Of a stretch of DNA of 64,000 nucleotides, positions 1-50,726 are shown one piece after another; within the stretch, counting starts at the first letter, position 1; every line of letters begins with the position of its first letter. Position numbers and translations under genes: made by a program. Source of the DNA: Coniferiporia sulphurascens (Eukaryota; Basidiomycota; Agaricomycetes; Hymenochaetales; Hymenochaetaceae); contig NBBA01000004.1 in assembly GCA_002794785.1 (NCBI GenBank), positions 744,001 through 808,000 on the forward strand, written 5' to 3'. The notes below the pieces were generated by a model. It had not been told where the DNA came from. It worked only from the letters and a program-made list of their open reading frames with translations, and searched no databases.

Positions 1-961
1 TTAGTCCTCTCAAGCCAACAGAGGGAACTATCCCCTGCCACTACAGCCCGCTCAGCACACTGAGTTTCCCATGCCCTGGCACGTGCTTCAGAACCCACAT
101 CAGCATCAGGTGTTACCCCAACACACTCCGTGGGGAATACTCGGGGCCCGCATTTAAGGGTTTTCCTGCTTCTGGATCCGCAGCGTACCAGAATCTCTGT
201 GTCGCAGAGGGGTGGACCCCAACACTTTTTACAGCCACCAGGGAGTGCCTCTTACTAACCACCTCAAGGGGGCCCGTCCCACCCGAGAGGCCCATGGTGT
301 CCTGTCGCATTTCTGCATCGGATGGTTATTACCGCCACACCATGTGTTATGAGACCCCTATCTCCTTTTAGCAACTAGTGCCATCATCAGAGACCCTTTT
401 GGGAATTTGGGGAGCAGTTTTTGGTATGACATGCCGGTCATCATGGCCTCAATGCAAGTGCATCAATCCTGGAGGATTAGACCCGACTTTCGCTGAACCC
501 GAGGTTTCCCAGTTTTCACCGACTGCTAGTGGGCAGAGGGTTTCCCGACTCCCATGGGAATGTTATCGTTGTGTTCCCCCCCAACTGGCGCACTTTGCAC
601 CTTGCCCCACTGACCGGGCCTGAGGGCATGACCAGCAGACCAGTCGAGGCACCGCACCCCAAGAGGGTGCAGCAGACGTGAGAAGGAATCATCCTCACCA
701 AGTCATCCCCCCAATGCAACGTTAATGATGGGTTGCATACCCTCTGGCGAGCCCTAGAGCCCCTTTCGCATCTTCGAAACCACCGTTACAGTGGCTGGAC
801 GACCAGTGAGCACGCACTCCGGAGAACCGGTGTGCAGTCGGTAGCCTTCTCTCATATCAACCCAGCAGAGTACCAGACCAGAGTATGGGTTGCTGCGACA
901 AACCCCCAGATGACCCCCAGTGAAAACCAGAGATGGTGGCGGTAAGAGGACAAGAAGGATG
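1..961 (-). mobile_element. W element copy 1, inverted 5' part
   Basis: On the reverse strand this is the 5' part of the non-coding W sequence. Its 5' terminus (CATCCTTCTTG) lies at 961 and it runs leftwards off the window. It matches W copy 2 (4283-5243) closely along its length. At 962 the sequence switches to the remaining 3' part of W in forward orientation. The two parts meet in W coordinates near the motif GGACTAA. This layout (5' segment inverted, then 3' segment direct, then LINE tail) is what twin priming during LINE reverse transcription gives. Short ORFs here are not conserved in W copy 3, so I treat the segment as non-coding. The left target-site duplication is outside the window. 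Confidence 0.8.
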
Positions 962-1253
962 AGGAGTAAGTCCTATTGTGTGCTTAAGTTGATTCCCAGA
1001 AACTAGTGGTGCTCTACAATGGAAAGCGGGGTAAGGGGGGGAATGTGTAGGGTAGGGGGGGCACCCAATGGGTGGGGTAGTGCCTATGGCACTGCAACCC
1101 TCACTCGGAATGTCCTCCTGGCGCGGCATGCCCTTCCCAATCCAGCGCGTCATAGAGGACAGCATGTCGGGTATAAGTCCTTTGGTCAGGCATCTATGTC
1201 ACGAGGAAGGTGTACGTGTAGTGGGGCCCCGCAAGGGCACTCTTTAATTCTGG
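962..1253 (+). mobile_element. W element copy 1, direct 3' part
   Basis: This is the 3' part of W in forward orientation. It aligns with 5227-5543 of copy 2 and 33318-33638 of copy 3. Shared landmarks are GCTTAAGTTGATTCC near 985, the GTGTAGGGTAGGGG run near 1044, GGGGTAGTGCCTA near 1074 and the 3' end CCCGCAAGGG...TAATTCTGG at 1228-1253. W stops there and LINE ORF2 sequence begins. The end point matches the other two copies although the LINE sequence that follows differs. Confidence 0.8.
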
Positions 1254-4249: not shown

Positions 4250-4282
4250 GGTCAGAACTCGACTCCACCCAAGAAGAAGATC
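4250..4282 (+). mobile_element. Short LINE ORF2 (APE) remnant
   Basis: About 33 bases matching the APE region that encodes SELDSTQEE (compare STLDSTQEEN in the LINE-B ORF2 on the minus strand near 38020-38050). It lies between the 5' end of a reverse A2 copy and the 5' end of W copy 2, and is probably the continuation of the ORF2 fragment at 2117-2309. Confidence 0.65.
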
Positions 4283-5543
4283 CATCCTTCTTGTCCTCTT
4301 ACCACCACCATCTCTGGTTCTCACTGGGGGTCATCTGGGGGTTCATCGCAGCAACCTGTACTCTGGTCTGGTATACTACTGGGTTGATATGAGAGAAGGC
4401 TACCGACTGCACACCAGTCCTCCAGAGTGCACGCTCGCTGGTCGTCCAGTCACTGTAATGGCGGTTTCGAAGATGCAAAAGGGGCTCTAGGGCTCACCAG
4501 AGGGTATGCAACCCGTCGTTAACATTGCATTGGGGGGATGACTCGGTGAGGATGATTCCTTTTCACATCTGCTGCGCCCTCTTGGGGTGTGGTGCCTTGA
4601 CTGGTCTGCTGGTCGTGCCCTCGGGCCCGGTCAGTGGGGCAAGGCGCAAAGTGCGCCAGTTGGGGGGGAACACAATGATAATGTTTCCATGGGAGTTGGG
4701 AAACCCTCTGCCCACTAGCGGTCGGTGAAAACCGGGAAACCTCGGGCTCGGTGAAAGTCGGGTCTAATCCTCCGGGATTGATGCAGTTGCATTGAGACTG
4801 TGATGACCGGCATGTCATATCAAAAACTGCTCCCCAAATTCCCAAAAGGGTCTCTGATGATGGCACTAGTTGCTAAAAGGAGATAGGGGTCTCATAACAC
4901 ATGGTGTGGCGGTAATAACCATCCGATGCAGAAATGCGACAGGACACCATGGGCCTCTCGGGTGGGACGGGCCCCCTTGAGGTGGTTAGTAAGAGGCACT
5001 CCCTGGTGGCTGTAAAAAGTGTTGGGGTCCACCCCTCTGTGACACAGAGATTCTGGTATGCTGCAGATCCAGAAGCGGGAAAACCCTTAAATGCGGGCCC
5101 CGAGTATTCCCTGCAGAGCGTGTTGGGGTAACACCTGATGCTGATGTGGGTTCTGAAGCGCATGCCAGGGCATGGGAAACTCAGTGTGCTGAGCAGGCCG
5201 TAGTGGCAGGGGATAGTTCCCTCTGTTGGCTTGAGAGGACTAAATCCTCTGTGGGTTCTAATGGGGGTAATTCCCATTTGGGCTTAAGTTGATTCCTTGA
5301 CATGCAGCGGCACTTCACATCACCAATCAGGTACGGGGGGGGCGTGAGTCCAGGCGGCTGGGGGTGGTGGGGTAGTGCCTACGGCACCGTGACCCTCACA
5401 CTACACCTTTGGTGCATCGGGTAGCTCTAATCTCACCTTTAGGCCTGTGCGGCGTGAAGGACAGCAGGAGGGGTTTGTCGGGCCCCATATCCTGAGGAAG
5501 GTGCATGCATATGTTGGGCCCCGCAAGGGCATCCTTTAGTCAG
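4283..5543 (+). mobile_element. W element copy 2 (non-coding, composite retrotransposon)
   Basis: This complete W sequence of 1261 bp starts with CATCCTTCTTG and ends at GCAAGGGCATCCTTTAG. Its first 30 bases resemble the 5' ends of LINE-A and LINE-B (CCTTCTTG..., then ACCACCACCAT). The remaining ~1.2 kb has no LINE match and no ORF conserved between copies. The best-conserved stretch against copy 3 is about 4845-4990 (TCTCTGATGA, GCTAAAAGGAGATAGGG, CTCATAACACATGG, GACAGG.CACCATGGGCCTC). It is followed directly by LINE-A1 ORF2 sequence at 5544. The layout matches what was reported for WEIRD within MINE in Magnaporthe, but I have no sequence comparison to it. Confidence 0.82.
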
Positions 5544-7366
5544 GCCCTCCGCATCCTAGGCAACACCCAACACAGCATCTCGGCCCTTCTCCTCCGCTGC
5601 CTGTACACCTCCTGCATCCGATCAGTCCTGTCATGGGGTGTGCTGGTATGGTACCATGGCCACTGACAAAAAACCTTGGTAAACCGCCTCCAGACCATGC
5701 AAAACACAGCCTGCCAAGTGGATTCTTGGCATCTTTAAGGGCACTTCCCCCCATTCCACAAATTTTCTTTGTTCTGTTCCCCCTCTCTCTTTCTATTTTG
5801 AGTATATAAAGACAACCCATTCCCTGCACCTATGGCGCACCCCTCACTCTATTGGCCGAAAATTATTTAAAAACATCACTAATAGACCTTTTTCACTTTC
5901 TTTGCAGGTCTGAGCCCCCTGGGTTCAACAGGTCCCTGCATACACACATCCCCCATGGACAGACCCCCTGGCTTTCACCAAAGGCCAAGTCAGCTTCACC
6001 ACCCCCATCACACTGGTCAGCTCTGACACGCGCAAACAATTCATGAACATGGCAATGGCCCTAGGCTCCACAACACATGTCCAGGTATTCATGGATGGCT
6101 CCCACATAGACAATAAGTCGGGCTCGGCCATCTGTGCCATGCTGGGCACCACCCGCCTCTGGTCACAACAACTGGAGTCCCCCACCTGCACCACAGCCAT
6201 GGACACCAAGGAGTTCTCCCTCGCCACGGCCCCTGGCTGGGTAGCACACCACCTCCTGGCACAACTGCATGTCGCATCAGACATTCTTTCTATCTGATTC
6301 ACTGACCGCACTCCACCTCCTCTGCTCTTGGGCAGCTGCCCCCGGCGCCCACCTCCTACACATCTGGAAAGCGGGTGTGGAGACACTGCTGGACTTGTAC
6401 CCCCAGCTCACTGTTCATTTCATATGGTGCCCTGGCCACTTGGACATCCCCAGCAATGAATGGGCTGACACAGAAGTGAAACTGGCTACAGAGCTCCCCC
6501 CATCTGACCTCAAACCCTCCACCTCTGCACTAAAAGAAGTCGCCATCCACACCCTTATGGAGTGATGGACACTCTCGCTAGCCCACCCCCTGGCCTCAAC
6601 TGCTGACAAGTATCTGGCAGTCCAGGGCCTCCCCTCACGCCGACCATGAAAGTTGCCCATGCATTCAGTCGACCACCCATGCAACGAGCTATCTGCAGTT
6701 GCACAGGTCCTCTGTCGTGCCGGTCCCTACGGGGGATACTGGCTGAGTTTTGACTCGGCCTACCGATGCAGGCACGGCCTGATTTCGCACTGCAGGTGGC
6801 ACAACCACCCCCCCTGGCCCGTGCAGTCGACCGCCCACATTTTAGGCGGCTGCAGTACCTTCCACCCATGGATACAATGCATGTGGCCACCTCGGGACCC
6901 TCTCCCAACCCACCACACAGAGTGGGCTGACGAAAACTGCCTCCTGGTTTTGCGCCGATGGCTAAAGCTAATGGGGCACCTAAACCACCTCTCAGAATGC
7001 ACCGCAGGTGCCATATGGCTGTCCTTCGCCACTATGGACCTCAACGGACACCCCACCGACGAGGATATGGACCTGGACCTCCTACAGGACTACATGTGTC
7101 ATATGCTTGGACCCTGAACCCAGGACTCAGACCCAGCCCTTTTGGAGCTATCAGGTACGCTCCCTCCCTTTCCACTCGAATAAAAGCCTGCCTTTCAGAT
7201 GCCCACAAGATATGTCTCGGCCAGCGCTCTTGCCCTCCCTTTCCACTTCTAAGCTCCTTACCTTAACCTGCCCTCATCCACGTGGTTGGCCCATAGCGAT
7301 ATGTAGCCCTCCCTCTCGAGCTTTTTCTTACTAAATAGGGGCTCTTCACACTTGGGCACCCCTCAG
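5544..7366 (+). mobile_element. LINE-A1 part fused to W copy 2; left palindrome arm
   Basis: LINE-A1 sequence starts abruptly after the RT motifs (ALRILGNTQH region) and runs through the connection domain, RNase H (VFMDGS near 6085, WCPGHLDIPSNEWAD near 6427-6471), the Cys/His region (6770-6870) and the C-terminus, into the 3' UTR (GATATGTAG near 7298). It stops near 7366, before the 3' hairpin, where the second arm of the palindrome begins. Frames are broken by stops at 6294, 6563 and 6647 (TGA) and by an inserted CAAG-like duplication near 5717. The Asp in VFMDGS is kept. Confidence 0.85.
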
Positions 7367-22988: not shown

Positions 22989-23298
22989 TTTTTTTTTTTT
23001 TTAAATTATTCCTGCAGTATTACATAATTACAAGCTGCCCCCCCAAAGGGGGGGCCCTAACTACATAACAACAGAGGCGCCCGTCATTGCACAACACACA
23101 AAACTGGGTGGGGACCCTGCTCCCCGAAGGGTGCCAAGGTGGGAAGGGTCCCTATTAGTGGAGGCAAAGCAAGGGAGAGGAATACATATCGCTATGACAA
23201 AACTGAGTGGATGAGGGCAGGTAACGGGGGTAACTTAGAATTGGTAAGGGAGGGCAAGAGCACCGGCCAGGACATATGTGGGAGAGTCCGAAGGGCAG

Positions 23299-26058
23299 TC
23301 ACTGAGTAGAGGAAAAGGGAGGAAGCATACCTGAAAGCTCCAAGAGAGCCGGGTCCAGGTCCTGGGTTCGGGGTCCAAGCATACAACTCATGTATCCCCT
23401 GAGGAGGTCCAAGTCCATATCTTCATTGGTAGGGTGCCCCTCTAAGTCCATCACAGCGAAGGCCAGGCAGATGGTGGCAGAGGTGTGGTCGGAGAGGCGG
23501 TTCAGGTGCCCAGTCAGTTTCAGCCAGCAGCGCAGAACCTGGAGATGGTTTTTGTCAGCCCACTTGGTGTGGTGGGTCGGAAGTGGGTTGCGGGGGGGCC
23601 AGACCTTTTGGATCCATGGCCGGAATGTATGGCACCCACCCAGGACATGGGCGGTGGATTGGGCTGGCCAGGGGGGGTGGTTGTGCCACCTGCAGTGCAA
23701 GATCAGGCCGTGTCTGCACCGGTAGACTGAGTCGAAGCTCAGCCAGTAGCCCCCATAGGGACCGGCATGACAGAGGACCTGGGCGACTGCCGCTAGTTCC
23801 TGGCAGGGATGGTCGACTGACTGGTTGAGTAGCTTCCGTGGTCTGCGGGAGGGGATGCCATTGACAGCCAGATACTTGTCGGCTGTCGAGGCCAGTGGGC
23901 GGGCAAGAGAGAGAGACCACCGTTCCATTAGTGTGTTGACGGTGGCTTCCCTCAGAGCGGAGGTAGAGGGGGTGAGGGAGGACGGGGGGAGATTTGTTGT
24001 GAACTTTGCCTCGTGGTCAGCCCATTCATTCCCTGGTATGTTGGAGTGACCCGGGCACCATACGAAATGCACGGAAAGTTCCGGATACGAGTCCAAGAGA
24101 GTCTGGACCCCAGCCTTCCATTGATGAAGGAGATGGGCACCTGGGACTGGCGCCCATGTGCAGATAAGGTGGAGTGCCATCAGCAAATCTGACAGAAAGA
24201 AGATGTCAGATGTGACAGGCAGTAGTTCCCAGAGGTGGTGTGCGGCCCACATAGGCGCGGAGGTGAGGGAGAAAATCTCCATGTCCGTTGCTGTGGCACA
24301 TGTAGGGGAGGCGAGTCGGCGAGATTTTAGGTGGGTGAGGCCCATCATGGCGCAGACGGCGGAACCAGACTTCGTCCCCATGTGGGAGCCATCGGTGAAG
24401 ACCTGGAGGTGTGGGAGGGTGCTCAGGGAGTGCACGGCTTCCACGAATTGTTCGTGGGTGTCCTTGCTAACCGGAGTGATGGGGGAGGTGAATGATACTT
24501 GGCCATTCATAAATGCCAGAGGATCCGTCCACAGGGGGTGAGTGTATGCAGGAACCGGTTGAACCCGGGGGACCTGGACCTGCAGAGAAGTGGAGAAGGG
24601 ACAGTTAGCTACGGTTTTATAATAATGTTTTCTACTGATGGAGTGTGGGGTGCACCAGAGACGCAGAGAGTGTAGGGTCTTAGCATACTCAAAATAATAC
24701 AAGAGAGGGGGAAGGGAACAAAGGAAATTTGTGGAGAATGGAGAGGTGCCTTTATAGATGCTGAGGATCCATCTGCATGCCGTGTTTTGCACAGCCTGCA
24801 GGTGGCTTACTAAGGTTTTTTGGCATTGCCCGTGGTACCAGACCGGCACCCCCCATGTTAGGACAGAGCGGATGCAGGCGATGTATAGGCAACAAAGGAG
24901 GAGGGCCGAGATGCTGCGTTCGGTGTTGCCAAGAATGTGGAGGGCAGCGAGGGTGGAGAGGCCTTTGGAGCGCATTCGCTCGACATGGGCCTTGAAGGTG
25001 AGGGTGGGGTCCCACCAGATCCCCAGCCAGCGGAGGGGGATAGAAGGTCGGATAAGCGTGGTAGGGTCGACCTGGACCCCGGCCGAGTCCCAGTTGGTGT
25101 AAGCTGAGGAGCGACGTTGGGGTGGGTGGAAGTGTAGGCACTCTGTCTTGGTGGCCTCGATGTTGAGGCCGATGTCGCCAAAGAGGGCATCGAGTTGGTG
25201 GTAGGCGGCAGCGAGTTGCTGGCAGTTGGATGCCATGCTGGGGCCGACACGCACAAGGAGGTGATCGTCAACATATGCAAGGGCGGTGGTGCCAGTTTGG
25301 TGAAATTTCCAGAGGACCACACCCACAAATATGGTGGAGAGGATAGGGGATACTGGCGAACCCTGAGGGGTGCCGAGGTCGGGTTTCTGGGTGGTTGGGA
25401 GGGTGGTGCCATTGAAGGCGATGGCGACCTGCCGATCCGTCATGAAGGACAGGCACCAGTCCGCCATGTTGGGCAGGCACTGGAGGTCCAGCAGTTGTCG
25501 GTGGAGGAGTTGCAGGTGCACTGAGTCGAAGAAACCCTGTATGTCGACTGTGAGGACTGAACATACAAGTCCCTCTGCATGGGCGTGTTCTGCAATTTGT
25601 AGGAGGTGCTGGGCGGTGTCATAGACTGAGTGTCCCTGATGCCCCCCATATTGGTTAGGTGGCAACCAGTCCCACGTGTTAGCGAGGAACTGGAGCCAGT
25701 TAGCTATGATCTTTTCGAGGAGTTTCCCTAAGGTCTCCTCAAGGGTGATGGGCTGATATGATTTCGGCGAGAACGGGTTCTTCTTGTTAGGCTTCCGCAG
25801 CATTACCACTTTTGCCGCCCGCCAGCACTTGGGGTGGTGCCCCATGCACAGGCAGTCGTTGAAAAGGGTAAGTATCTCATCCAGGTAAGCGTCTACTACC
25901 CATTTGAGTGGGCGATAGCCGATCCCTGAGAGGCCTGGAGCCGACAAGTTGGAGGTGTCGGCCAGTGCCCCCATAAGCTCCACAAGGAGTATAGGCGGGG
26001 CAGCTGGTTGGGGGGGGGGTGGTGGGGTAATGCCTGCTGCCTGGGGTGGGGGGGGCAT
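23299..26058 (-). pseudogene. LINE-A2 ORF2: RT, RNase H and C-terminal domain (919 aa frame)
   Basis: The longest frame in the window, 919 residues with no stop. RT: KPNKKNPFSPKSYQPITLEE at 89-108, motif A with Asp172 (VDIQGFFDSV), motif B at 228-240 (LGTPQGSPVSPIL), motif C YVDD at 262-265, motif D (LNIEATKTECLHF) and motif E (WLGIWWDPTL). RNase H: first Asp near 556 (VFTDGS), Glu in TDMEIFSL, then FLSD and WCPGHSNIPGNEWAD ending near 681. A Cys/His-rich region lies near 780-808 (HCRWHNHPPW...HVLGGC), followed by the natural end. The protein would copy LINE RNA into nicked DNA. The APE half is upstream in other frames, and the LTR splits the gene, so this copy is dead. Confidence 0.92.
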
Positions 26059-26291
26059 GAAGAAGGTCGTGCGAAAAAGCTCACCTTTCTCATTGTCTGA
26101 TTGGGTGAAGGTGCCATCACCCTTTTTTAGCGATGGTATAGGTGTGGGTCGGTTGCCGAGGCTGCGTTTGGCCCAGCTCCAGATATTGGAGGTGTCTGCA
26201 GTGTCAGCTTGGTCGGCGTAGAAATGCTGCTTGGCTGCTCATACACCACGCTTGAAAGCGGGGCAGGCTGCTGATCGCTGAAGGGGGGTGG

Positions 26292-26850
26292 TGTTAAGCT
26301 CAATGGTTACACGGTGATCGACGTCAGGGCTTCCTGATTGTCGGGACTGATGGTATGGCAACGGGGCTTCCTAGATGTTGTAAGTCGAAGATGATCGTTG
26401 ATGGGGCTTCCTGATCAATGATGTGGACGCGGTAGGCTTCTGAGGTGAGTCGGGTTACGATGAAGCGACTTGTGGCACACGGGCGCACAGTAGACTGGTG
26501 GTAGCAGATAATGGGCTTGTATGAACAAAGAGCACAAGCTTAGGGCTTGTGCTACTGAAGTTACATGCTTATATGCTACTCTATGTGTTTGCTACTGTAG
26601 GGTCGTGTATTAGGTCGTTTACATGACTATGGAAGGTCATGGAAACCCAAGGAAGGTCTTGGTAATACAAGTGAAAGTATCAGTAAGCAAAGCACGTCAT
26701 GATGGTGCAATAAGGTGTCATCATGGCATCTTATGGCGCAAGGCGAATAAGGATGAGTAAGGCAGAGGAATGGGGGAGTTGCGCTGACTGATGATGACGA
26801 AGAGGAAGTGAGTCAGCGCAGTAAGGGAAAAGTAAAGGAAAATTGTAACA
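26292..26850. mobile_element. Solo LTR of an LTR retrotransposon (559 bp)
   Basis: This insertion interrupts the A2 ORF2. It begins TGTTA and ends TAACA (TG...CA with a 5-base terminal inverted repeat) and is flanked by a perfect 5 bp duplication, GGTGG (26287-26291, 26851-26855). These are the hallmarks of an LTR left by recombination between two LTRs. Inside are three copies of GGGCTTCCT (near 26327, 26363, 26403) and a 9 bp inverted repeat AGCACAAGC/GCTTGTGCT (26531-26553). There is no coding sequence. The superfamily and orientation cannot be told from the LTR alone. Confidence 0.9.
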
Positions 26851-26855
26851 GGTGG

Positions 26856-27774
26856 TGGCCGTCGATATCGCCTGGAGGAGCGATTTGCATGTCGGGGTCC
26901 ACCAGGGGACCTCGGTTTTGCACGGCTTGGTGAGTCGGGTGAAGGGGGTGAGGGCGGCAATCATGGAGTCGACCACTGCCTGCACTTTGATGTCTAGGGT
27001 GAGGGTGTCGCCCACTGGGAGGCGGAAAGCGGTTTCAAGTAATGGAAAGGCGATATTGGTCCAAGTTTCTCTGTCATCCAGAAGGAGCTGGTGTGTTTTA
27101 GTGACAGGGGGTGGGGGTCGAGACGGCAAGGACCAGCATAGCATAGCGTGGTCGGACAGTGGGGAGGTGGTTGAAGAGCCCGAATCTATGATGGAGTCGG
27201 GGTTGATGGCGGGTGGGGCCCAGATCATGTCAATAGGGCACCACCGACAATTGTCAATGGGCCATGAGTCAGAGTCCGGGAGGTGAGCTGGTGCGAGGCC
27301 GCGCTCTCGGAAGAAGTCATTGAGGGGTTGCACCCTCAAATCCTCCTGCTGGGCAGCGAGGAGTTCGGACCATGAGTGGTGGCGATGGTTGAAGTCGCCT
27401 GCCACTAGGAGGGTGGAGGCCAAGGCTGGTGGGATCATATAGAGGAACAACTCACCTGGGTATTGTGGGGTGGTGGTGGCGCAGTCTGGTGCATGCATCC
27501 CATAGAAGTTGCACAGGCAGATCATCAGGTGGGTGTGGATTTCGATAGTGAGGACATTGGTGCCGGATGAGGCGGCCCCGAGGACAGACCATGAGGTGGT
27601 GGGGATGGCATGGGAAACATAGGTGACCACCCGGGGCCAAGTGGCTGGGGGTAGGACTGCTATGTACCCGGGGAGGGAGGGTACATTGAGGACCGGCATT
27701 CCGGTGGGGTCGGTAAGGGATGGCTGGAGGCCGATTTGGTACCAGGGGGGTTCCTGAATCAAAATGACGGTGGG
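26856..27774 (-). pseudogene. LINE-A2 ORF2 APE endonuclease domain
   Basis: The minus-strand frame from 27774 down to the LTR encodes most of the APE-type endonuclease. Features: LIQEPPWYQIGLQPSLTDP (catalytic Glu in QEP), RVVTYVSHAIP, VAGDFNHRHHSWSELL (GDFN), CRWCPIDMIWAPPAINP, and SDHAMLCW (the SDH motif with catalytic His), then the linker (REPWT-like, EVPWWTPTCKSLLQAI). In the intact protein it nicks the target DNA to prime reverse transcription. The first ~28 codons, including the start, are missing because of 5' truncation. The downstream part of the gene lies beyond the LTR. Confidence 0.88.
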
Positions 27775-27867
27775 CATAGAGCATTCCTGTATCCACTGGG
27801 GTTCGACATGGGGGAGTTTTAGCTGCCCACACTAGTCGATGGTGGTGGTTACTGGTCAAGAAGGATG
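27775..27867 (-). mobile_element. LINE-A2 5' terminus
   Basis: The 5' end of a reverse A2 copy. The minus strand starts CATCCTTCTTG at 27867, then ACCACCACCAT, a 5' UTR of about 58 bases and the gag ATG in CCCCCATGTCGAAC near 27809. It continues at 22988. Directly upstream, at 27868, forward LINE-B RNase H sequence begins; no TSD is visible. Confidence 0.82.
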
Positions 27868-28456
27868 GCCTCCCCCACCTGTGCCACAGCAACAGACGCC
27901 GAGATCTTCTCGCTGGCGACTGCCCCAGGCTGGGCTGCACGCCGACTACAACACCTACTGATGGACATCCAGGAAATTTATTTCCTCTCCAACTCTCTGA
28001 CAGCCCTTGGCCTCTTCCGCACTTGGCCCTCAGCATTGGGGGCCCAGCTCCTCCCTCTCTGAAAGGTGGGGGTCGAGACTCTTCTCGACTCTTTTCCAAA
28101 CCTGACCATTCATTTCCGATGGTGCCTGGGACATGAGGCCATCACTGGGAATGAATGGGCAGACTCTGAGGCGAAGCTCGCCACCAAGCTTCCCCCGTTG
28201 ACCCTAGCTCCCTCTATCTCCGCTCTGAAGGAAGTGGCGACTCACACCCTACGTGAGCACTGGTCCTTACAGCTGGCCTGCCCCCTCGCCTCAACTGCAG
28301 ACAAATACCTCGCAGTCACCGGCCCCCCAACCTGCCGACCACAGAAGATCCTCACGGTCTCGGTAGACCACCCCCGCTCTGAGCTCACTGCTGTGGCACA
28401 GGTCCTCTGTTGTGCCGGTCCCTATGGGGGCTACTGGCTGAGCTTCAACTCAGCCT
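27868..28456 (+). pseudogene. LINE-B RNase H fragment (left part of outer B copy)
   Basis: Forward B-type sequence from inside RNase H: TDAEIFSLATAPGWAARRL, FLSNSLTAL (Asp of FLSD changed to Asn), WCLGHEAITGNEWAD, PSISALKEVATHTLREHW and GPYGGYWLSFN. A TGA at 28060 breaks it. The same copy appears to continue at 50727, with about 120 bases missing between the two parts. Everything from 28457 to 50726 is the nest inserted into it. It starts within 2 bases of the start point of the B copy at 15944. Confidence 0.82.
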
Positions 28457-28766
28457 TTTTTTATTATTTTATTATTATTTTATTATTATTATTCCTGCAG
28501 TATTACATAATTACAAGCTGCCCCCCCAAAGGGGGGGCCCTAACTACATAACAACAGAGGCGCCTGTCATCGCACATTGCATGAAACTGGGCGGGGACCC
28601 TGCTCCCCGAAGGGTGCCAAGGTGGGAAGGGTCCCTATTAGAGAAGGAAACGAATGGGAGAGGAATACATATCGCTATGACGAAACCAAACAGATGAGGG
28701 CAGGTAACGGGGGTAGCTTAGAATAGGAAAGGGAGGGTGAGAGCGCTGGCCGGGACATGCAGGGGA
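28457..28766 (-). mobile_element. LINE-A2 outer reverse copy, 3' end
   Basis: The 3' UTR and tail of the large reverse A2 copy that holds most of the central nest. The tail is a mixture of AAT and AAAT units, with the hairpin near 28520-28540. It is cut at 28766 by a forward A2 fragment flanked by the perfect TSD GGGACATGCAGGGGA (28752-28766, 30555-30569). Confidence 0.88.
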
Positions 28767-32190: not shown

Positions 32191-32367
32191 CTGTAAACTA
32201 CCTAACTACTGAGGTGCCTGTCATCGCTCATCGAGTGAAACTGGGCAGGGTGCATGCCTTCAAGGAGGCCTAGTGTACTTACATGCCCTATTAGGGATAA
32301 ATAAGAGAGGGGGAGAGAGAGGTATACATATCGCGACTATGGAGAACCCGAGCAAGTCAAAATGAGG

Positions 32368-33638
32368 CATCCTTCTTGTCCTCTTACCACCACCATCTCG
32401 GTTTTGCGACTGGGGTCGGTCAGGGGGAAGTCGCAGCTACCTGACCTTGTCTGGACTCTCTGGGACTGGGCATTGTATGAGAGAAGGTTCCGACTCACCC
32501 TGGTGCACCGGGGTTGGTCATCGGTCGCCGTAACACGGCGGGGAATGGGTGCGGAGCTCGCTGGCGGTCTTGGCAACCCGTCGAAAATGTTGCTTCTGGT
32601 TGGATTCTCGGTGAGCTTGCATCCTTCTGGCGTCTGCGCTGTCCTCTCGGGGTGGCGTGCTCGTTGGGCCTGCATTGTATGTGGACTCGGCAGGGGGGGG
32701 GGGACACGACGTTAACGTCCTCACAGGGGGGGGGGAAACCCCCTGCCTCGCAGCAGGCGACTTCGGTCAGGTGATCTTGGTTCGGGGCAACTCGGATCAT
32801 GCCTTCGGGTGCTGAGCAATGCCCTTCTGGGTACCTCGGGGCCCGTGTTGTCCCTGGCATGACAAATCAAAAACTGCCCCCCCAAATTCCTGAAAGGGTC
32901 TCTGATGACAGCACTGCGTGCTAAAAGGAGATAGGGGGCTCATAACACATGGCGTGGCGGTAAGAACCACCCGACACTGAAAGGCGACAGGGCACCATGG
33001 GCCTCTTGGGTGGGTTGGACCCCCTTGAGGTGGTTAGTATCCTCTACTCCCTGGGATGGCTTTGCCACCGGGGTCGAGTATGCGAGACGGAGATCCTGGT
33101 ATGATCGCAGATCCAGAAGTGGGGGCTGGGGGTTGACTGGGTGCTTGTCCCATGACCTCGGTTCCTGAGTATTCCGGCTGTAATGGCTGTTTCTGAAGCG
33201 CATGCCAGGGCATGGGAAAGGGCCTGCATGGAGTGTGTGTTGGCATTCCGGCATGCTGAAGTGTAGTGTCTCGGGCCGTAGTGCTGTGGGAGAGTTCCCC
33301 CCAGTGGCTCCAGAGGACTAAATCCTCCATTGGTTCATGTGGGGGTAATTCCCACTACAGGCTTAAGTTGATTCCCAGAAGCACAGTGGTACTCTACAGG
33401 ACCTCTATAGTCAGGGAGGGAATGTGTAGGGTAGGGGGGTTGTTCCATATGGGTGGGGTAGTGCCTACAGCACCGCAACCCTCACTCGGGATGGCCCCCT
33501 GGCACGGCACGCCTTACCCTAGTGCTCCAATATAGCGCCCATATGTCGTAGAGGACAGCAGGAGCAGTTTTGGTCACTGCATATCCCGAGGAAGGTACAC
33601 GCATTGTCTGAGTCCCGCAAGGGTGCTCTTAATTCTAG
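32368..33638 (+). mobile_element. W element copy 3 (complete, with TSD)
   Basis: Complete W of 1271 bp starting at CATCCTTCTTG and ending at GCAAGGG...AATTCTAG, joined at 33639 to LINE-A 3' UTR. It is the most diverged of the three copies, but the central block at about 32888-33040 stays close to copy 2 while the surrounding parts differ more. The whole composite (32368-33832) is flanked by AAGTCAAAAYRAGG (32354-32367 TG form, 33833-33846 CA form), a LINE-type TSD. This is the direct evidence that W moved by LINE-style target-primed insertion. No conserved ORF is seen. Confidence 0.87.
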
Positions 33639-33798
33639 CTCTTCTCCTTTACTAATAGGGACCCTTCCCACCTTGGCACCCTTCGGGGAGCAGGGTCCCC
33701 GCCCAGTTTCATGTGATGTGCGATGACGGGCGCCTCTGTTGTTATGTAGTTAGGGCCCCCCCTTCGGGGGGGCAGCTTGTAATTATGTAGTACTGCAG

Positions 33799-33832
<34 letters not shown>
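33639..33832 (+). mobile_element. LINE-A 3' UTR tail of W copy 3
   Basis: Only about 194 bases of LINE-A: the CTAATAGGGACCC region, GCCCAGTTTC, the hairpin (about 33758-33776) and the CTGCAGGAATAAT end, followed by a tail of about eleven AAT units and A's (33800-33832). Of the three W composites this has the shortest LINE part. Confidence 0.9.
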
Positions 33833-33834
<2 letters not shown>

Positions 33835-33928
33835 GTCAAAACAAGGTCAGGAAAAGAGAGTCCCTTAGAAGCGGCAAGGAGTGGCTGCGATTGCCATAGA
33901 CGAAACCGGTGGGGAATTCGAAGGGCAG

Positions 33929-43147: not shown

Positions 43148-43176
43148 CATCCTTCTTGACCAGTAACCACCACCAT
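43148..43176 (+). promoter_or_regulatory. Conserved LINE/W 5'-terminal motif
   Basis: The first ~29 bases (CATCCTTCTTG, then a variable 6-7 bases, then TAACCACCACCAT) recur at every 5' end seen: A2 (27867 minus, 56938, 63273), B (near 41652 minus, as CCCCTTCTTG...ACCACCACCAT) and W (961 minus, 4283, 32368). Because LINEs carry their promoter downstream of the start site, a conserved 5' terminus shared with a non-coding passenger suggests an initiator or internal promoter, or an RNA 5' end signal. The role is inferred. Confidence 0.7.
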
Positions 43177-43594
43177 CGACTAGTGCGGGCAGCTAAAACT
43201 CCCCCATGTCGAACCCAGGCGATTACAGGAACACTCTCTGTCGGACAACCCGAACCAACCCCCCACCTGCCCCACCAGCCAACACCGACCCCGACCGGGT
43301 CGCCAGGATGGCCGCCAATTGGGCCTCCGCAGGCGCAGCTGCTGCCGCGAGGCACAGCACCGCTGCCCCCACCACCCCCCAACAGGCACCCCTGACCAAC
43401 TTCCCACCATTGACCTCCTCCCCGGATGTCCTGGCACCCTCCCCAGCCATTGGCGACTCGCAACTGATCTCAGCCTACAACTTCACCACCCAAGCGCGCA
43501 TGGAATCCAGGGCAGCATCCTGAGCCGGCTCCCCAGCCGCCTCGGTAGGGTCGATCCATAGCTCCATCGAAACCGGTGAGACAGCCCCAGCAAT

Positions 43595-43952
43595 TTTTTA
43601 TTTTATTTTATTTTATTTTATTTTATTCCTGCAGTATTACCTAATTACAAGCTGCCCCCCCGAAGGGGGGGCCCTAACTACATAACAATGGAGGCGCCCG
43701 TCATTGCGCATCGCACAAAACTGGGCGGGGGCTCTGCTCCCTGAGGGGTGCCAATGTGTGAAGAGCCCCTACTTGGTGGTGAGAATGAGAGAGGGAGGGA
43801 TACATATCGCTACAAACAGACCAGGCGGTTGAGGGCAGGTTAAAGTAGGAAGCTTAGAAGTGGAAAGGGGGGGCGAGAGTGCCAGCTGGGACATATCATG
43901 GGGGATACCGAAAGGCAGGCTTTACTCGAGTGGAAAAGGAGGGAGCGTACCT
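43595..43952 (-). mobile_element. LINE-A 3' fragment in gag, perfect TSD
   Basis: A reverse 358 bp insertion holding only the A-type 3' UTR and tail. The tail is a clean TAAAA repeat (T-rich on the + strand, 43595-43627). The perfect 15 bp TSD GACAGCCCCAGCAAT (43580-43594, 43953-43967) makes it the youngest layer of this nest. Confidence 0.93.
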
Positions 43953-45638
43953 GACAGCCCCAGCAATGGCGGTTGACCCCCATACCCCCCCGCAACAGGT
44001 GGGAGGCGCAAGCCTCGGGCGGAAACACTCCTCGGCCGCCATGTCGCCTCTCACACTGAGAGGACCCCCTGCCCAACAACATGACCAGCATATGGCAGGG
44101 TTCATGTACTCCCTCACCTGCGCCCTGGACGACTTCGACCAGCAAACCAGGGATGCCACCACCGAGACGATCAATGTCAAGGCTGCACAGTTTGTGGGCA
44201 ACCTCCTATGGAACGTCCAACGGACGCTGGCCAACATAGAGCAAGACAGGACATACCCACAGAACATCATCTACCGCAATGCAGTGATGGCCTACAGTTT
44301 CGCGAGGGAGGGGGCGGTAATCGCCCTCCCGGAACCTTTCGCCCCAGCTCGCCCCCCCCAAAGGGCCCCGGCCACCACCGGGACCCCCGGCACCGCCCCT
44401 GTGACCCCAGAAATGAAGGTGCTGACTGAGGCAGTCAAGCGTCTGACTACTGACGTGGCTTCTATTTCACGGCAGATGTCTTCCATCAGCTCTAGGCCTG
44501 CCCAGCACCAACAGCAACAACAACCGCAACAACCGGCCCCCCAAGCCACCGTCCAGGCCGCCCCCACCTCCTATGCCCAAGTGGCCGCAGCAGCGGCCCC
44601 CCCAACGACCGCCAACCCATCCCCAGTGGCTCCAACCACTGGGGCAGTCATCAACCCGGGGCAAAAGAAGAAGAAGCGCCAGAGGAAGGTACCCCCGCCA
44701 CCTATGATGTATGCCAAGGACCCAACCTTGGTCCTCACCCCCACAGTCGGCATATGGGCCGAGAACCAGAAGTCAGCAATGGCCCTGACAAAAACGTCCC
44801 ATGAGTTTTTTGCCTCCCTCCCCACTGCAGACCAAGTCCCAGTCTTGTCCTCTTCCTACAATGTAAAGGGGAACATCGTGACCACATTTGCGGCACGCGC
44901 ATCCTCGGCTAACCCGACCATGGAAATGATCATTGATCGGCACTCCGTGGCCTATGCCTCCCATATGCGCACAGAGTGCATCGTGACAGGAATTAACGTC
45001 CCAGCTGCCTTCTCCCTAACCCCCTCCAGAGTCCGCCCCCAGTCCGCATTGCGCATCTCCATGGTGCCCTGCAAGGACTTTTTGTTCAGCCAAAATGGAC
45101 ACACCATAAACAAGAAGGCCCTCATGGCCGAAATCCGGCATAACCCGGCACTCCACAACCTTGACTTTGTAGTCACCCCCCACTTTGCCGCCACCGAAGA
45201 CCACCTGCCGACACTCAACAGATGCCCAGTGGTATTCTCCTTTGTCGACCCCAACAGCTCCATCCGCGAGTGCCTCCTCAAGAGGCCACACATCTGGATG
45301 TTCGGATCCGCCCTCCGCCTCTCAGTCCCACCTGTCCGCCCCACCCTCACTCAATGTGAATGGTGCCAGGGCCTCGGTCATGGAACCAAGGGCTGCCGAG
45401 CCCAACCCTGTTGCACCGATTGCACAGGTGCCCACCTGACCCGCAATCACCGCAAATCATGCGCCCACTGCACAACTGACGCAGTGCCAGAAGGCGACAC
45501 CTGCCCTCACCCCCGCCTCTGCAACAACTGCAAGGGCGACCACCCCGCCACCCTGCCGGCCTGCCCTAAGAAGAGGCGATACCGCCAAATCGAAGAGGCC
45601 CTCGCCGCTGACCCTACCAATGACCAGATGGAGGAAAT

Positions 45639-45642
45639 ATGA
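45639..45642 (+). promoter_or_regulatory. ORF1/ORF2 stop-start overlap (ATGA), LINE-A1
   Basis: Gag ends GAA ATA TGA, and ORF2 begins at the ATG of the same ATGA. The overlap matches LINE-B at 38552-38555, so it predates the split of the two families. It suggests coupled reinitiation rather than independent translation of ORF2. Confidence 0.8.
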
Positions 45643-48600
45643 TAGAGACAATCTCTGTCTTGCAGTGGAACGCCGCCTGCTCTCTAGTGGCGATACATTC
45701 CCTAATCCCTGTCCTTACAACTGACCCCTCCCCCCCACACCTAATTCTCATACAGGAACCCCCCTGGTATCAAATAGGCCTGCAACCATCACTCACCGAC
45801 CCGACCGGCACCCCAGTCCTCAACGTCCCCACCATCCCAGGCTACATCCCCGTCCTACCACCAGAGGTTCGCCCTCGGGTAGTTACGTATGTATCCAGGG
45901 CCCTCCCTCCCACCTCCTGGTCGATCCTCGGAGCCGCATCTTATGGCACCGATGTACTGATGGTGGAAGTACGATCCCAACTCACCCTCCGGGTGTGCAA
46001 CCACTACAGCATGCACCCCCTGGATCAAGAGAACGCCTCCCCCCAGTACCCCGGTGAGTCCTTTTTATTCTCACTCCCCTCGGCGCTAGCCACCACACAT
46101 GGTCCGATTTCTCTGTCCCACGGTGGGAGGACTTGGGGGCACAACCCCTTGACAACTTCTTCCATGGGCATGGCCTGGCGCCTGCTCACCTCCCTGACTC
46201 TGACTTGCAACCTGACGGTAACTGCTGCCGGTGTCCCATTGACATGATCTGGGCCCCACCCGCGGTCAACCCAGACTCTATTTTAGACTCGGGCTCCTCC
46301 GACCCCTCACCACTGTCCGACCACACCATGTTGCATTGGATGGTGCCATCTCGACCCCCCCCTCCTGTCCTAAAGACATGCCGGCTACTTCCAGCTGACA
46401 AGGAGAAATGGACCGAAATAGCCTTCCCTCTCCTCAAAACAGCCTTTGGTCTTCTGGGGCACAACACCCATGCCCTGGACACCAAAGCGAAAGCGGTCCT
46501 CGACTCCATGGTTGCCGCCCTACAGCCGTTCACCTGCATCTCAAAGCCGTCGAAAACGGAAGTCCCATGGTGGTCACCCCACTGCAAGACCCTCTTATCC
46601 ACCATTACAATGGCAACCACCCCCCTCCAGCGTGCATCAGCAAGAAGAGCCTTTAAAAGGGGCGTTAGGACAGCCAAATGGCAGTTTTACGCCAACCAGG
46701 CATTGGAAGCAGACGCCTCCAACATCTGGAACTGGGCCAAGCACGGTCTAGGCAACAGACCCACTCCCATCCCATCGCTGAAACAGTGAGATGGCACCTT
46801 CACCCAAACGGATGAGGAGAAAGGTGAGCTCTTCTGCGAAACTTTCTTCATGCCCCCCCCCCCCAGGCAGCAGCCAACACCCCACCGCCACCACCCCAAC
46901 CAGCTGCCCTGCTAATACTCCTTTCAGAGCTTATGGGGGCACTGTCCGACACATCCAACTTGTCAGCACCGGGCCTCTTGGGAATAGGTTACTGCCCCCT
47001 GAAATGGGTGGTGGACGCCTACCCCGATGAGATTCTTACACTTTTCAACAACTGCATGTGTTTGGGGCACCACCCCGAATGCTGGTGGGTGGCAAAGGTG
47101 GTAATGCTCCAGAAGCCAAACAAGAAGGATCCCTTCTCGCCACGGTCATACCGGCCCATCACCCTTGAGGAGACCCTAGGGAAACTCCTCGAAAAAGTCA
47201 TCACTAACAGGCTCCAGTACCTCGTGAACACAAGGGACTGGCTGCCACCCAACCAATATGGGGGACGTCAGGGCCATTCGGTCTACAACACCGCCCAACA
47301 CCTTTTACAGATCGCGGAACACGCCCACTCAGAGGGCCTTGTGTGCTCGGTCCTTGCGGTCGACATTCAGGGCTTCTTCGATTTGGTGCACCCATGGCTC
47401 CTCCACCGACAATTGCTGGACCTCGGCTGCACCCCAGACATGGCCAACTGGTGCCTGTCCTTCATGACAGACCAGCAGGTAGCCGTCGCCTTTGATGGCA
47501 CCACCCTCCCAACTGCCCCGAAACCCGACCTCGGCACCCCCCAGGGATCGCCAGTCTCCCCCATCCTGTCAACGATATTCACAGGGGTGGTCCTCCAGCG
47601 CTTTCACCAAGCTGGCACCACCGCCCTAGCATACATTGACGACCACTTACTTATCTGCATAGGACCTTCAGTAGCATCCAACTGCCACAAGCTCGCACAC
47701 ACCTACCAACAACTCGACACACTTTTCGGCACCATTGGTCTCAACATTGAAGCCACCAAGACAGAGTGTCTCCACTTTCACCCCCCTCAGCGACGCATCG
47801 GCTATAACGGCTGGGACACCGCCGGGGTACAGGTTGACCCCAATACCCTTATCTGCCCCTCAATCCCACTTAGATGGTTAGGGATATGGTGGGACCCTGG
47901 CCTCTCCTTTAAGCCCCATGTTGAGCGGATGCGCTCCAAGGGGCTCTCCACCCTTGCCGCACTCCGCATCCTGGGCAACACCCAACACAGCATATTGGCC
48001 CTACTACTCCGCCACCTATACACCTCCTGCGTTCACTCTGTCCTGTCATGGGGAGCGCCGGTATGGTACCATGGCCACCGCCAAAAAAACCCTGGTAAAC
48101 TGCCTCCAGGCTGTGCAAAACACAGCCTGCTGATGGATCTTGGGCATCTTCAAAGGTGCCTCCCCCCATTCCACTAATTTTCTATGCTCCGTTCCCCCTC
48201 TCTCTTTCTATTTTGAATATATAAAGACTACCCATTCCCTTCACCTCTGGTGCACCCCTCACTCTATTGGCTGTAAAATTTTTAAAAACATAGCTAACAG
48301 ACCCTTCTCCCTTTCTCTGCAGGTCCGAGCCCCCCGGGTTCAACAGGTCCCTGCATACATGCATCCCCCATGAACAGACCCACTGGCTTTCACGAAGGGC
48401 CGAGTCCGGTTCACCACCCCCGTCACCCCGGTTAGCGCTGACACCCGGAAATCATTCATAATGGTGGTGCACCAACTAGGCTCCACCCCCCATGTCCAGG
48501 TCTTTACCGACGGCTCCCGCATTGACAATAAGTTGGGCTCGGCCATCTGCGCAATGCTGGGCAACACCCGTCTCTGGTCACGCCAACTGGAGTCCCCCAC

Positions 48601-49600
48601 CTGTGCTACAGCCATGGACACCAAGGAGTTCTCACTCGCCACAGCCCCGGGCTGGGTAGCACGCCGTCTCCCAGTGCAACTGTGTGTCGCATCGGATATC
48701 TTCTTTCTATCCGATTCACTGACTGCTCTACACCTTTTCTGAACCTGGGCCGCTGCCCCCAGCACCCACCTCCTCCACATTTGGAAAGTGGGTGTGGAGA
48801 CTCTGCTGGATTCGTACCCCCAGCTCACCATCCATTTCGTATGGTGCCCCGGACACTTGGACATCCCCAGAAATGAATGGGCTGACACAGAGGCAAAGCT
48901 GGCAACTGAGCTCCCCCCATCTGATCTCAAACCTTCCACCTCCACCCTAAAAGAAGCTGCTGTCCGCACCCTCATGGAATGATGGATGCTCTCACTAGCC
49001 TGCCCCCTCGCCTCGACCGCCAATAAATACCTGGCAGTCCATGGCCTACCATCATGCCGACCTCGAAAGCTCCTCATGCATTTGGTCGACCACCCGTGCA
49101 GCGAACTATCCGCAGTCGCACAGGTCCTCTGCCATGCCGGTCCCTATGGGGGTTACTGGCTGAGTTTTGACTCGGCCTACCGCCACAGGCACAGCCTGAT
49201 CTCGCACTGCAGATGGCACAACCACCCCCCCTGGCCAGCCCAGTCGACCGCCCACATCCTAGGTGGCTGCAGCACCTTCCACTTGTGGATACGACGTGTT
49301 TGGCCACCTCGGGACCCTCTCCCAGTCCACCACTCAGAGTGGGCTGACGAAAACCACCTCCTGGTTTTGCGCCACTGGCTTAAGCTAACAGGGCACCTTA
49401 ACCGCCTCTCTGACCGCGCCACAGGCGCCATCCGACTGTCCTTTGCCGCAATGGACCTGGATGGACACCCCACCGATGAGGATATGGACTTGGACCTCCT
49501 ACGGGACTACATGCATCCTATGCTCGGACCACGAACCCTGGACTCGGACCCAGCCCTTTTGGAGCTTTCAGGTATGCTCCCTCCCTTCCCGCTCGAGTAA
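45639..49600 (+). pseudogene. LINE-A1 ORF2 (APE, RT, RNase H), broken
   Basis: Domains in order: APE from MIETISVLQWNAACSL (45639), LIQEPPWYQIGL and RVVTYVSRALP, with a deletion near 46087 that removes the GDFN motif and shifts the frame; CRCPIDMIWAPPAVNP and SDHTMLHW (46318); linker EVPWWSPHCKTLL; RT 46933-48100 with VDIQGFFDLVH, GTPQGSPVSPIL, AYIDDHLLICIG (motif C near 47630) and motif E; RNase H from VFTDGSRIDNK (48500) to WCPGHLDIPRNEWAD (48885); Cys/His region and C-terminus, ending LPPFPLE at 49600. Breaks: TGA 46788, a frame change in the C-run near 46858, an extra A near 48086, and TGA at 48133, 48372, 48740 and 48980. Confidence 0.9.
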
Positions 49601-49849
49601 AGCCTGCCTTTCGGAATCCCACATGATACGTCCCAGCCGGTGCTCTTGCCCTCCCTTTCCACTTCTAAGCTTCCTACTTTAACCTGCTCTCAACCGCTCA
49701 GTTTGTTCATAGCGATATGTATCCCTCCCTCTCTCAGTTTCTCTACTAAATAGGGGCTCTTCACATGTCGGCTCCCTTTGGGGAGCAGAGCCCCTGCCCA
49801 GTTTGGTGCGATGCGCCATGACAGGCGCCTCTGTTGTTATGTAGTTAGG

Positions 49850-49868
49850 GCCCCCCCTTTGGGGGGGC
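49850..49868 (+). promoter_or_regulatory. LINE-A 3' UTR hairpin
   Basis: A GCCCCCCC / GGGGGGGC stem with a TTT loop (TTC, TCC or CTC in other copies), about 25 bases before the element's 3' end. It is present in every A-type 3' end in the window. In position and form it matches the B hairpin at 32172-32190. Confidence 0.7.
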
Positions 49869-49908
49869 AGCTTGTAATTATGTAATACTGCAGGAATAGA
49901 AAAAAAAA

Positions 49909-50726
49909 GCTATCGCCTGGAGGAGCAATTTGCAAGTTGGGGTCCACCAGGGGACCTCGGTTTTGCACAGCTTGGCGAGTCGGGTGAAAGGGGCGAGGGC
50001 GGCTATCATGGAGTCGACCACTGCCTGTGCTTTGATGTCTATGGTGAGGGTGTCATCTGCTGGAAGGTGGAAAGTGGCTTCAAGTAATGGAAAGGCAATA
50101 TCAGTCCACGTTTCTCTGTCATCTGGGAGGAGCCGGCATGTTTTCATGACAGGGGGTGGGGGTCGAGACGGCAAGGACCAGCGTAGCATAGCATGGTCAG
50201 ACAGTGGGAGGTGGTTGACAAGCCCGAGTCTATAATGGAGTCGGGGTTGATGGCAGGTGGGGCCCAGATCATGTCAATAGGGCACCACCAGCGATTGTCG
50301 ATGGGCCGTGAGTCAGAATCCGGAAGGTGGGCTGGTGCGAGGCCATGCTCTTGGAAGAAGTCATTGAGGGGTTGCACCCTCAAATCCTCCTGCCGAGTGG
50401 TGAGGAGTTCGGACCATGAGTGGTGGCAACAGTTGAAGTCACCCGCCACTAGGAGGGTGGAGGCCAAAGCTGGCAGGATCATATAGAGGAACGACTCACC
50501 TGGGTATTGTGGGGTGGTGGTGGTGCAGTCCAGTGCATGCATCCCATAGAAGTTGCACAGGCAGATCATCAGATGGGCGTGGATTTCGATAGTGAGGACA
50601 TCGGTGCTGGAGGAGGCAGCCCCAAGGACTGACCATGAGGTGATAGGGATGGTGTAGGAAACATAGGTGACCACCCGGGGCCGAGTGGCTGGGGGTAGGA
50701 CTGCTATGTACCTGGGGAGGGAGGGT
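49909..50726 (-). pseudogene. LINE-A2 outer copy: APE domain
   Basis: The most upstream part of the outer reverse A2 copy. Two minus-strand frames encode RVVTYVSYTIPITSWSV, VAGDFNCCHHSWSELL, WWCPIDMIWAPPAINPDS (50144-50700) and, after a frame change near 50205, MLRWSLPSRPPPPVMKTCRLLPDDRETWTDIAFPLLEATFHL and EVPWWTPTCKLLLQAI (49909-50189). It is 5'-truncated at 50726, where forward LINE-B sequence resumes. Confidence 0.87.

Follow-up and report, generated by a model that had tools for sequence, protein, structure and literature searches.

Introduction

The closest described counterpart of the element analyzed here is MINE of Magnaporthe, in which a non-coding sequence of ~1.1 kb called WEIRD, full-length at its 5' side, is joined to LINE 3' ends of 230-5461 nt (PMC2104539; the WEIRD-MGL architecture is also covered in PMC3978060). 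As far as the sections of PMC2104539 used here go, 31 MINE copies are described, with 10-20 bp duplications, joint hot spots with the motif GCC^A/U, no solo WEIRD and one tripartite element. WEIRD was called a possible housekeeping RNA in 2007, and these sections give neither a source gene nor relatives for it (PMC2104539). Mammals provide a second counterpart. In U6/LINE-1 and other snRNA-L1 chimeras, a full-length RNA likewise lies 5' of a truncated L1 in the same orientation and within duplications, an arrangement that the consulted parts of PMC13174262 attribute to template switch or ligation.

A preliminary description of one locus in Coniferiporia sulphurascens had compared it with MINE, and our analysis upholds the comparison: a full-length non-coding sequence, W, lies 5' of a truncated LINE, with variable joints and with duplications. 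Compared by description and not by sequence, W and MINE are alike in architecture, duplications, many joints with a motif, and lack of solo copies, as far as MINE is covered by PMC2104539. The differences lie in a count of 239 W-type 5' ends against the 31 MINEs described there, in at least five W families, in a 5' end that W shares with the LINE (such sharing is not reported for WEIRD in the consulted parts of PMC2104539), in a further set of LINE partners, and in the host, a basidiomycete here and an ascomycete there. No basidiomycete case of MINE-type elements was found in the open-access literature searched. New with respect to MINE are therefore the scale, the presence of several families, a 5' end in common with the LINE, additional LINE partners and the statistics of the joint sites. 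In contrast to the U6 chimeras, which the portions of PMC13174262 used here present as independent captures of host RNA that usually do not spread further, W forms a repeat of several families whose 5' end derives from the LINE.

Results and Discussion

Organization of the W-LINE composite

The window, i.e., the whole stretch of 64,000 nucleotides that was analyzed (G000:C4:744001-808000), belongs to a genome of 39.35 Mb in 31 contigs. The composite from which our analysis starts is built as follows:

32354..32367, + strand: left target-site duplication AAGTCAAAATGAGG, read directly
32368..33638, + strand: full-length W of family A, which begins CATCCTTCTTGTCC.. and ends ..TTAATTCTAG
32368..32399, + strand: 32-nt 5' hallmark of W, identical in the representatives of families A-D
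33639..33799, + strand: 5'-truncated LINE 3' end, from reference LINE coordinate ~5292 onward
33800..33832, + strand: (AAT)n tail of the LINE, read directly
33833..33846, + strand: right target-site duplication AAGTCAAAACAAGG, read directly

Both lengths given in the preliminary description, 1271 bp for the W segment and ~194 bases for the LINE end, are correct on direct reading, and the 14 bp duplication noted there does enclose the pair of W and LINE. Its two copies, AAGTCAAAATGAGG and AAGTCAAAACAAGG, match at 12 of 14 positions, both mismatches being transitions, and its score of 8 is the lowest among the 11 positive loci described below. The joint near 33639 is ambiguous by a 4-nt overlap, AGCT, and the W end ..TTAATTCTAG of this copy stands where most other copies have GG. 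Elsewhere in the window, the LINE 3' part of the composite matches 21 places at 76-95%, with values above 81% for 17 of these. For its W, 46 matching pieces were found genome-wide, the best other copy at 92%, when the best 40 of 285 candidates were scored; a family B query gave 53 pieces (best 40 of 281 candidates scored).

Further copies of W and of the LINE are present in the window:

4283..5543, + strand: full-length W of family B
5544..7364, + strand: LINE part joined to this family B W, with the joint at reference coordinate ~3517
1..961, - strand: 5' part of another family B W, the whole copy being G000:C4:743702-744961
~962..1251, + strand: 3' part of a family D W, which runs into a LINE 3' part (1257-2097)
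43148..49909, + strand: full-length LINE of ~6.76 kb with an imperfect duplication, CTATYGCCTGGAGG (13/14)
23005..27866, - strand: long LINE copy with endonuclease (EN), reverse transcriptase (RT) and RNase H domains and its 5' hallmark at ~27866

The family B composite at G000:C4:743702-744961 sits inside a family D W and is flanked by a 16-bp duplication, AATAGGACTTACTCCT; because of this duplication, the arrangement at window 961/962 is a nested insertion and not an inversion. Family B composites stand head-to-head with pieces of family A or D at window 961/962, G000:C29:1189/1217, C10:1745490/1745518 and C12:373119/373147. The full-length LINE (start CATCCTTCTTGACC.. / CATCCTTCTTGACCAGTAACCACCACCATCGA) has a 58-nt leader before the ORF1 ATG at 43206, and a small LINE insert is nested in it at ~43600-43960. 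In the case of the LINE RT ORF, 11 of the 12 best protein matches come from Coniferiporia weirii, with 55-68% identity. For a mitochondrial chaperonin fragment, Rickenella mellea is the best match that bears a name, at 91% identity (an unnamed one reaches 93%), and both results would place the host among basidiomycetes near Hymenochaetales.

Two side observations concern the LINE sequence of the window. Positions 5544-7221 and 7366-9043 form 100% complementary arms of 1678 nt each with 144 nt between them, amid decayed LINE sequence, and represent either an inverted duplication of very recent date or a fold-back of the assembly. In addition, a repeat of ~560 bp, apparently another mobile element, occurs at varied places of the LINE (window ~26290-26850 on the - strand, L027, L029, L030, L038 and L049).

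Abundance and families of W

The preliminary description had named a single fixed locus as an outcome that would speak against its reading, and W is not confined to one locus. Genome-wide, 239 W-type 5' ends were found (24-mer, at most 2 mismatches; reversed control 0), though some of these ends may belong to a LINE subfamily whose sequence deviates at a single position. The same genome contains 933 LINE 3' ends (28-mer, at most 3 mismatches; control 0) and 260 matches to the commoner LINE 5' end; this last figure is used instead of a LINE 5'-end pattern with 509 matches, which W fits with one mismatch. A search for W across the genome, proposed at the outset, brought up at least four families that are joined to the LINE (A-D) and a fifth family, E.

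Among the first 100 places listed per query, W 5' ends lie on C1-C17 and LINE 3' ends on C1-C3. The listed places of the LINE and of families A-D are mostly concentrated in one block per large contig, very roughly 0.2-0.5 Mb in size, or near contig ends (e.g., C1 1.33-1.58 Mb and C2 1.49-1.73 Mb; also C3, C4, C6-C8, C11, C12 and others). Judged from the distribution of these listed places only, the blocks look like centromeres.

The representatives of families A-D are 66-77% identical and have the same first 32 nt. Their 3' ends, TTAATTCTGG (A), TTTAGTCAGG (B), TTAATCGTGG (C) and TTTAATTCTGG (D), carry GG at the equal place. Of 51 copies of families A and B whose 3' end is complete, 42 begin at most 4 nt from the W 5' end, a share that is biased by a search which puts long matches first. 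In a tree of 71 W copies, every family forms one side of a branch with a support of 99-100 and is star-like inside; the probable segmental duplicates L052/L053 and L050/L057 were kept in this tree and in the counts. The members of both pairs are W copies on different contigs with common flanks, which correspond to block parts duplicated between contigs or to assembly copies.

Pairwise differences within families amount to 7.5-10.3% transitions per site, with 0.4-0.9% transversions in A, B and C and 2.7% in D, and in A, B and C the density of transitions is 16-20 times higher at columns derived from CpG. Since transversions are few and transitions concentrate at CpG, the copies of families A-C were near-identical at insertion and decayed at CpG later. 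The divergence pattern of these three families resembles that of cytosine methylation of the blocks.

Insertion of W and LINE as one unit

Duplications were examined in 24 testable loci, which start no more than 4 nt from the 5' end of W and have a LINE tail at a distance of up to 1.5 kb. A duplication with a score of at least 8 is present in 11 of them, each 14-16 bp long, compared to 2 of 552 mismatched flank pairings, which corroborates the early proposal that W and the LINE end were inserted as one unit by LINE-type insertion. Examples are AGTCAGAGAGGCGG (L002), AGCACCGGTCTGGT (L011), AGCCAAGTACTTGTC (L034) and AATAGGACTTACTCCT (L035). In the other 13 loci, no duplication within the scanned stretch reaches this score, and some carry nested insertions; nested insertions and decay are the likely explanation for these 13.

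Insertion of W into resident LINE copies at the joint motif (YYR^CY, see below) is rejected, as the duplications enclose W plus LINE and not W alone, and it is also ruled out by 5' flanks that differ from the LINE sequence upstream of the joint. No solo W was found among 83 3' ends of families A-D: 80 are followed by the LINE, and the others are L047, where W joins a piece of family D, L038, which by eye joins the LINE, and L056, an unassigned case with a nested LINE at once. Among the copies read, there is no W source gene that can be separated from a LINE context.

Variable joints and their motif

The joint set consists of 83 W copies whose 3' end is complete (28 of family A, 23 of B, 13 of C and 19 of D), 3'-truncated copies being excluded, and joint coordinates refer to window 23000-28460, reverse complement, as the reference LINE. 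On this reference, 73 joints were placed by script (A 26, B 16, C 12, D 19); they span coordinates 1299 to 5292 and hence EN, RT, RNase H and the 3' UTR. Joints in ORF1 are found among the copies that the script left unplaced (L046, L052, L053), and L066, included in the family C count, was assigned by hand to site 4582. The donor sequence upstream of the joint is readable in 82 of the 83 copies; the sole exception, L038, by eye has the 4688 site, interrupted by another repeat. Mapping of the joints over the copies, as had been suggested together with the mapping of duplications, thus gave 60 distinct sites among 82 readable joints (L047 and L056 counted), and the single fixed joint that would point to one founder element was not found. 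For placed copies only, the families differ: 26 A copies occupy 21 sites, 16 B copies 13, 13 C copies 4 and 19 D copies 18. In family C, six copies are joined at 5035, three each at 5112 and at 4582, and one at 3298.

On the LINE side, the joints follow the motif YYR^CY, all five positions of which are present in 25 of the 60 sites, against a background of 3.3%. YY at positions -3,-2 occurs in 52/60 sites (background 36.5%), G at -1 in 35/60 (21%) and C at +1 in 44/60 (36.5%). The overlap at the joint is exactly one base in 50 of 82 cases, none in 30 and more in 2; as W ends in G, the G at -1 corresponds to this one-base overlap. The letters differ from those of the MINE motif GCC^A/U, while pyrimidines just 5' of the joint are seen in both, as far as the motif is presented in the sections of PMC2104539 used. 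With ~80 readable joints, there are enough sites to study the natural template change of a LINE RT by its motif and one-base overlap. Such a change is otherwise studied with mammalian U6-L1 chimeras or with the R2 protein in vitro.

A W exon spliced to LINE acceptors was considered and rejected: the LINE side ends in YYR, with C at -2 in 46/60 sites, and not in AG. The joints show no clear preference with respect to the ORF2 reading frame (20/14/10 of 44).

Proposed mechanism

We consider it fairly probable that W represents the RNA of a parasite that is non-autonomous, depends on the LINE and has repeatedly been captured onto LINE 3' ends. The W RNA would have a length of ~1.27 kb, would be non-coding and probably structured, and would end in ..GG without poly(A) or a LINE tail; that such a separate RNA with a ..GG 3' end exists is what we infer from the sequence. 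Its first ~30 nt would be the LINE's own start or promoter signal. The LINE endonuclease and RT would begin target-primed reverse transcription (TPRT) on LINE RNA, and the RT would copy a variable stretch of the LINE that ends by preference at a YYR^CY site. Synthesis would then go on from the 3' end of the W RNA, often with the one-base G overlap, to its 5' end, and the cDNA of W plus LINE would integrate as a single unit with a 14-16 bp duplication. According to this scheme, most insertions would be new joinings of W to LINE and a minority would be copied as a unit, and at any given time each family would draw its W RNA from a single source or from very few.

The main rival places the joining before reverse transcription: LINE RNA cut at YYR^CY would be ligated to the W RNA at its 3' end, and the chimera would then serve as the TPRT template. 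A site of RNA cleavage would fit a LINE-side motif that is mostly missing at ordinary truncations. Indeed, ordinary LINE 5' truncations with duplications have YY in 2/10 cases compared to 52/60 joints (Fisher P = 5e-5; n = 10, one site counted twice, contexts taken from the reference LINE). Ligation is also given as an alternative for U6/LINE-1 chimeras in the consulted part of PMC13174262. Yet, the G at -1 in 35/60 sites and a 7-nt overlap at a joint between families B and C (L059, see below) are better in line with a cDNA end that pairs with an acceptor, and no ligase or nuclease has been identified. We thus prefer a template jump and hold ligation to be unlikely.

Repeated joining versus copying as a unit

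A second rival assumes a small number of W-LINE elements whose transcription starts at the 5' hallmark and which are then retrotransposed in full, so that the joints would represent old founders. Some copies behave in this way. In the family B pairs L033/L042 (site 3277) and L041/L045 (site 3659), no transversion is seen in either part and the two members group as sisters in the tree of W, and each pair may have been copied as a unit; unit copying may also apply to family C, with its 13 copies at 4 joints. In families A and D, however, joints are nearly as many as copies (26 copies on 21 sites and 19 on 18, respectively), and none of the three repeated family A sites groups in the W tree.

Copies that have the family and the joint in common differ unequally in their two parts. 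In 31 such pairs, transversions amount to 0.57% in W versus 3.6% in the first 110 bp of the LINE. The LINE value exceeds that of W in 28 of the 31 pairs, which are not independent since 15 stem from one six-copy site, and at 7 of 8 sites when averaged per site. A version with 230 bp of LINE gives 5.6% and 30/31, inflated for L041/L045 because the LINE match of L045 ends after 119 bp. In addition, different families coincide at five exact joint positions: A and B meet at 3659 and 4688, A and D at 4672, and B and D at 4522 and 5166. Only 0.47 such positions would be expected at random (P = 0.00015; joint positions below 3200 were left out of this test). Therefore, founder copying cannot explain the cross-family positions, whereas repeated joining to the same W can. 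Taken as the general route, retrotransposition of whole composites is quite improbable, and repeated joining is preferred for most insertions.

The shared 5' end and the nature of W

Eighty-five different hallmark-like 5' ends in the sequence examined consist of 70 W, one W variant and 14 LINE ends. At the loci L005 and L017, the LINE agrees with W over nt 4-32 in 28 of 29 bases, the LINE-type end at G000:C3:2130137 matches W nt 1-29 at 28 of 29 bases, and the commoner LINE matches the W 5' end at 26 of 32. Past base ~30, no similarity was found on comparison of the 5' regions of W and LINE. The preliminary description had suggested that W is a passenger RNA that uses the LINE machinery; the use of this machinery is supported, while a simply unrelated passenger is not, as the 5' end of W is that of the full-length LINE. 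Given first letters that are nearly the same as those of the LINE, the comparison suggests an evolved parasite and not a chance passenger. Since the most conserved stretch of W is the LINE's own start, a promoter-like role is suggested, and by analogy the shared ~30 nt may act as promoter or as another 5'-end signal.

This analogy is provided by trypanosomatids. Their Pr77-bearing non-autonomous elements have an A-rich 3' tail of their own, whereas W is tail-less and relies on a borrowed LINE 3' end whose length varies. Similar to W, these elements have a short 5' hallmark in common with their LINE (L1Tc/ingi), and this hallmark activates transcription in trypanosomatids according to the parts consulted of PMC4748587, PMC8190864 and PMC4035085. 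From this likeness, a function of the shared 5' end of W as promoter may be inferred.

The 5' end also bears on a view that Gogvadze et al. put forward for WEIRD and that, applied to W, would make it a host non-coding RNA with a function of its own that the LINE has caught. A near-invariant source per family, conserved blocks, some compensated helices and the lack of a self-sufficient tail would all suit a host RNA. Against this, the 5' end of W belongs to the LINE, at least five divergent families exist in one genome, and 0 of 83 W 3' ends are solo, 80 being followed by the LINE. A host RNA is accordingly a quite improbable identity for W; judged by the shared 5' end, by the families and by copies among which no separable source gene was found, W appears to be a parasite. 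That W is merely an alternative 5' untranslated region of the LINE, with composites as internal deletions of one long RNA, is very improbable: the shared ~30 nt and the position of W 5' of the LINE in the copies read would agree with it, but the full-length LINE has a 58-nt leader without W, and W joins ORF1, EN, RT/RNase H and the 3' UTR with no preferred full-length form.

As a LINE-dependent parasite, W is also distinct from SINEs. Elements such as Mg-SINE depend, like W, on LINE protein in trans, yet SINE RNA itself carries a LINE-like 3' end (Mg-SINE, in the portion used of PMC2104539) and W ends before the LINE end. A LINE-recognised 3' end of its own, as a SINE has, is not what we found: in the copies read, W ends in ..GG, and the LINE part is variable and comes mostly from different templates. 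We tentatively propose, as a possibility somewhat short of probable, that W is a tail-less RNA replicon and hence a third non-autonomous way, in which the LINE recognition end is never its own and a LINE-derived 5' start signal was acquired. Its multiplication would depend mainly on a LINE RT that arrives at a YYR^CY site and goes on to the 3' end of W, and this way of life would have lasted long enough for at least five families to split on more than one set of LINEs. On this reading, WEIRD would be another replicon of the same type instead of a housekeeping RNA. A second system, with a LINE-derived 5' end, makes the nature of the WEIRD RNA testable.

Coding potential and structure of W

In all four families, the median of the longest open frames in W does not exceed that in shuffled sequence, and W as a protein-coding sequence is rejected for this reason. 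Rfam gave no match in the window at gathering score, and at E<=1 none in four W-bearing loci or six family E pieces. A known RNA or a head derived from tRNA, 5S or 7SL was thus rejected as well, and no Rfam ribozyme matches W.

Several hairpins stay paired through double changes between families (alignment columns 1265-1338, 1394-1437 and 1173-1189, among others). A permutation test for double-changed pairs that remain paired gave P = 0.012, <0.001 and <0.001 when trained on B, C and D, and 0.68 when trained on A. The complementary strand was significant in 3 of 4 cases, with a smaller share of changed pairs kept. Folding z-scores in windows average -2.2 on both strands, the strongest being -12 on the plus strand, with one of -11 on the minus strand. 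In controls with sliding partners, pairing is 71-79% versus 37-49% after sliding, yet double changes are no more frequent; because the sliding controls show no excess of double changes, the case for structure rests on the permutation test and on individual helices. After the strand and family A controls, this proof of structure is graded as moderate, and W is probably a constrained, structured RNA.

Serial joints and a further set of LINE partners

W can also be joined to W. In L059, a family B W meets a complete family C W at the 5' end of the latter, with the 7-nt overlap CATCCTT, and the family C W is itself joined to the LINE. This organization matches the tripartite element of Magnaporthe as presented in the part of PMC2104539 used; the outer duplication of L059 is unreadable. 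L047 contains a joint between families B and D, where only 63 bp of family D are followed by nested insertions, and with just these 63 bp readable it was not accepted as proof that composites serve as templates.

Family E came to light through a 15-mer from the 3' third of W with exact matches far outside the LINE/W blocks, where six matches of 231 bp each define one further family. At least 26 copies are present at >=90% identity, one of them partial, all outside the listed blocks, although one (C8:1395089) is only ~35 kb from a block. In 10 of the 26 copies, a LINE endonuclease domain follows 505-2064 bp downstream on the same strand, whereas no copy (0/26) has one within 4 kb upstream, or downstream on the opposite strand. 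Chance would give 0.0076 per copy (P = 3e-15). The scan scored the best 150 of 601 candidates, and the other 16 copies are to be read as unplaced and not as negative. The varying distance between E and endonuclease fits varying joints. W families thus occur on at least two sets of LINE copies, which are defined here by location.

Several LINEs that adjoin family E have long open frames. Outside the blocks, LINEs with open frames of ~1160-1460 codons and no stop in the domain are found at G000:C1:4967592, C7:609913, C8:1393302, C3:1402322 and other places, and judged by these frames they are possibly active.
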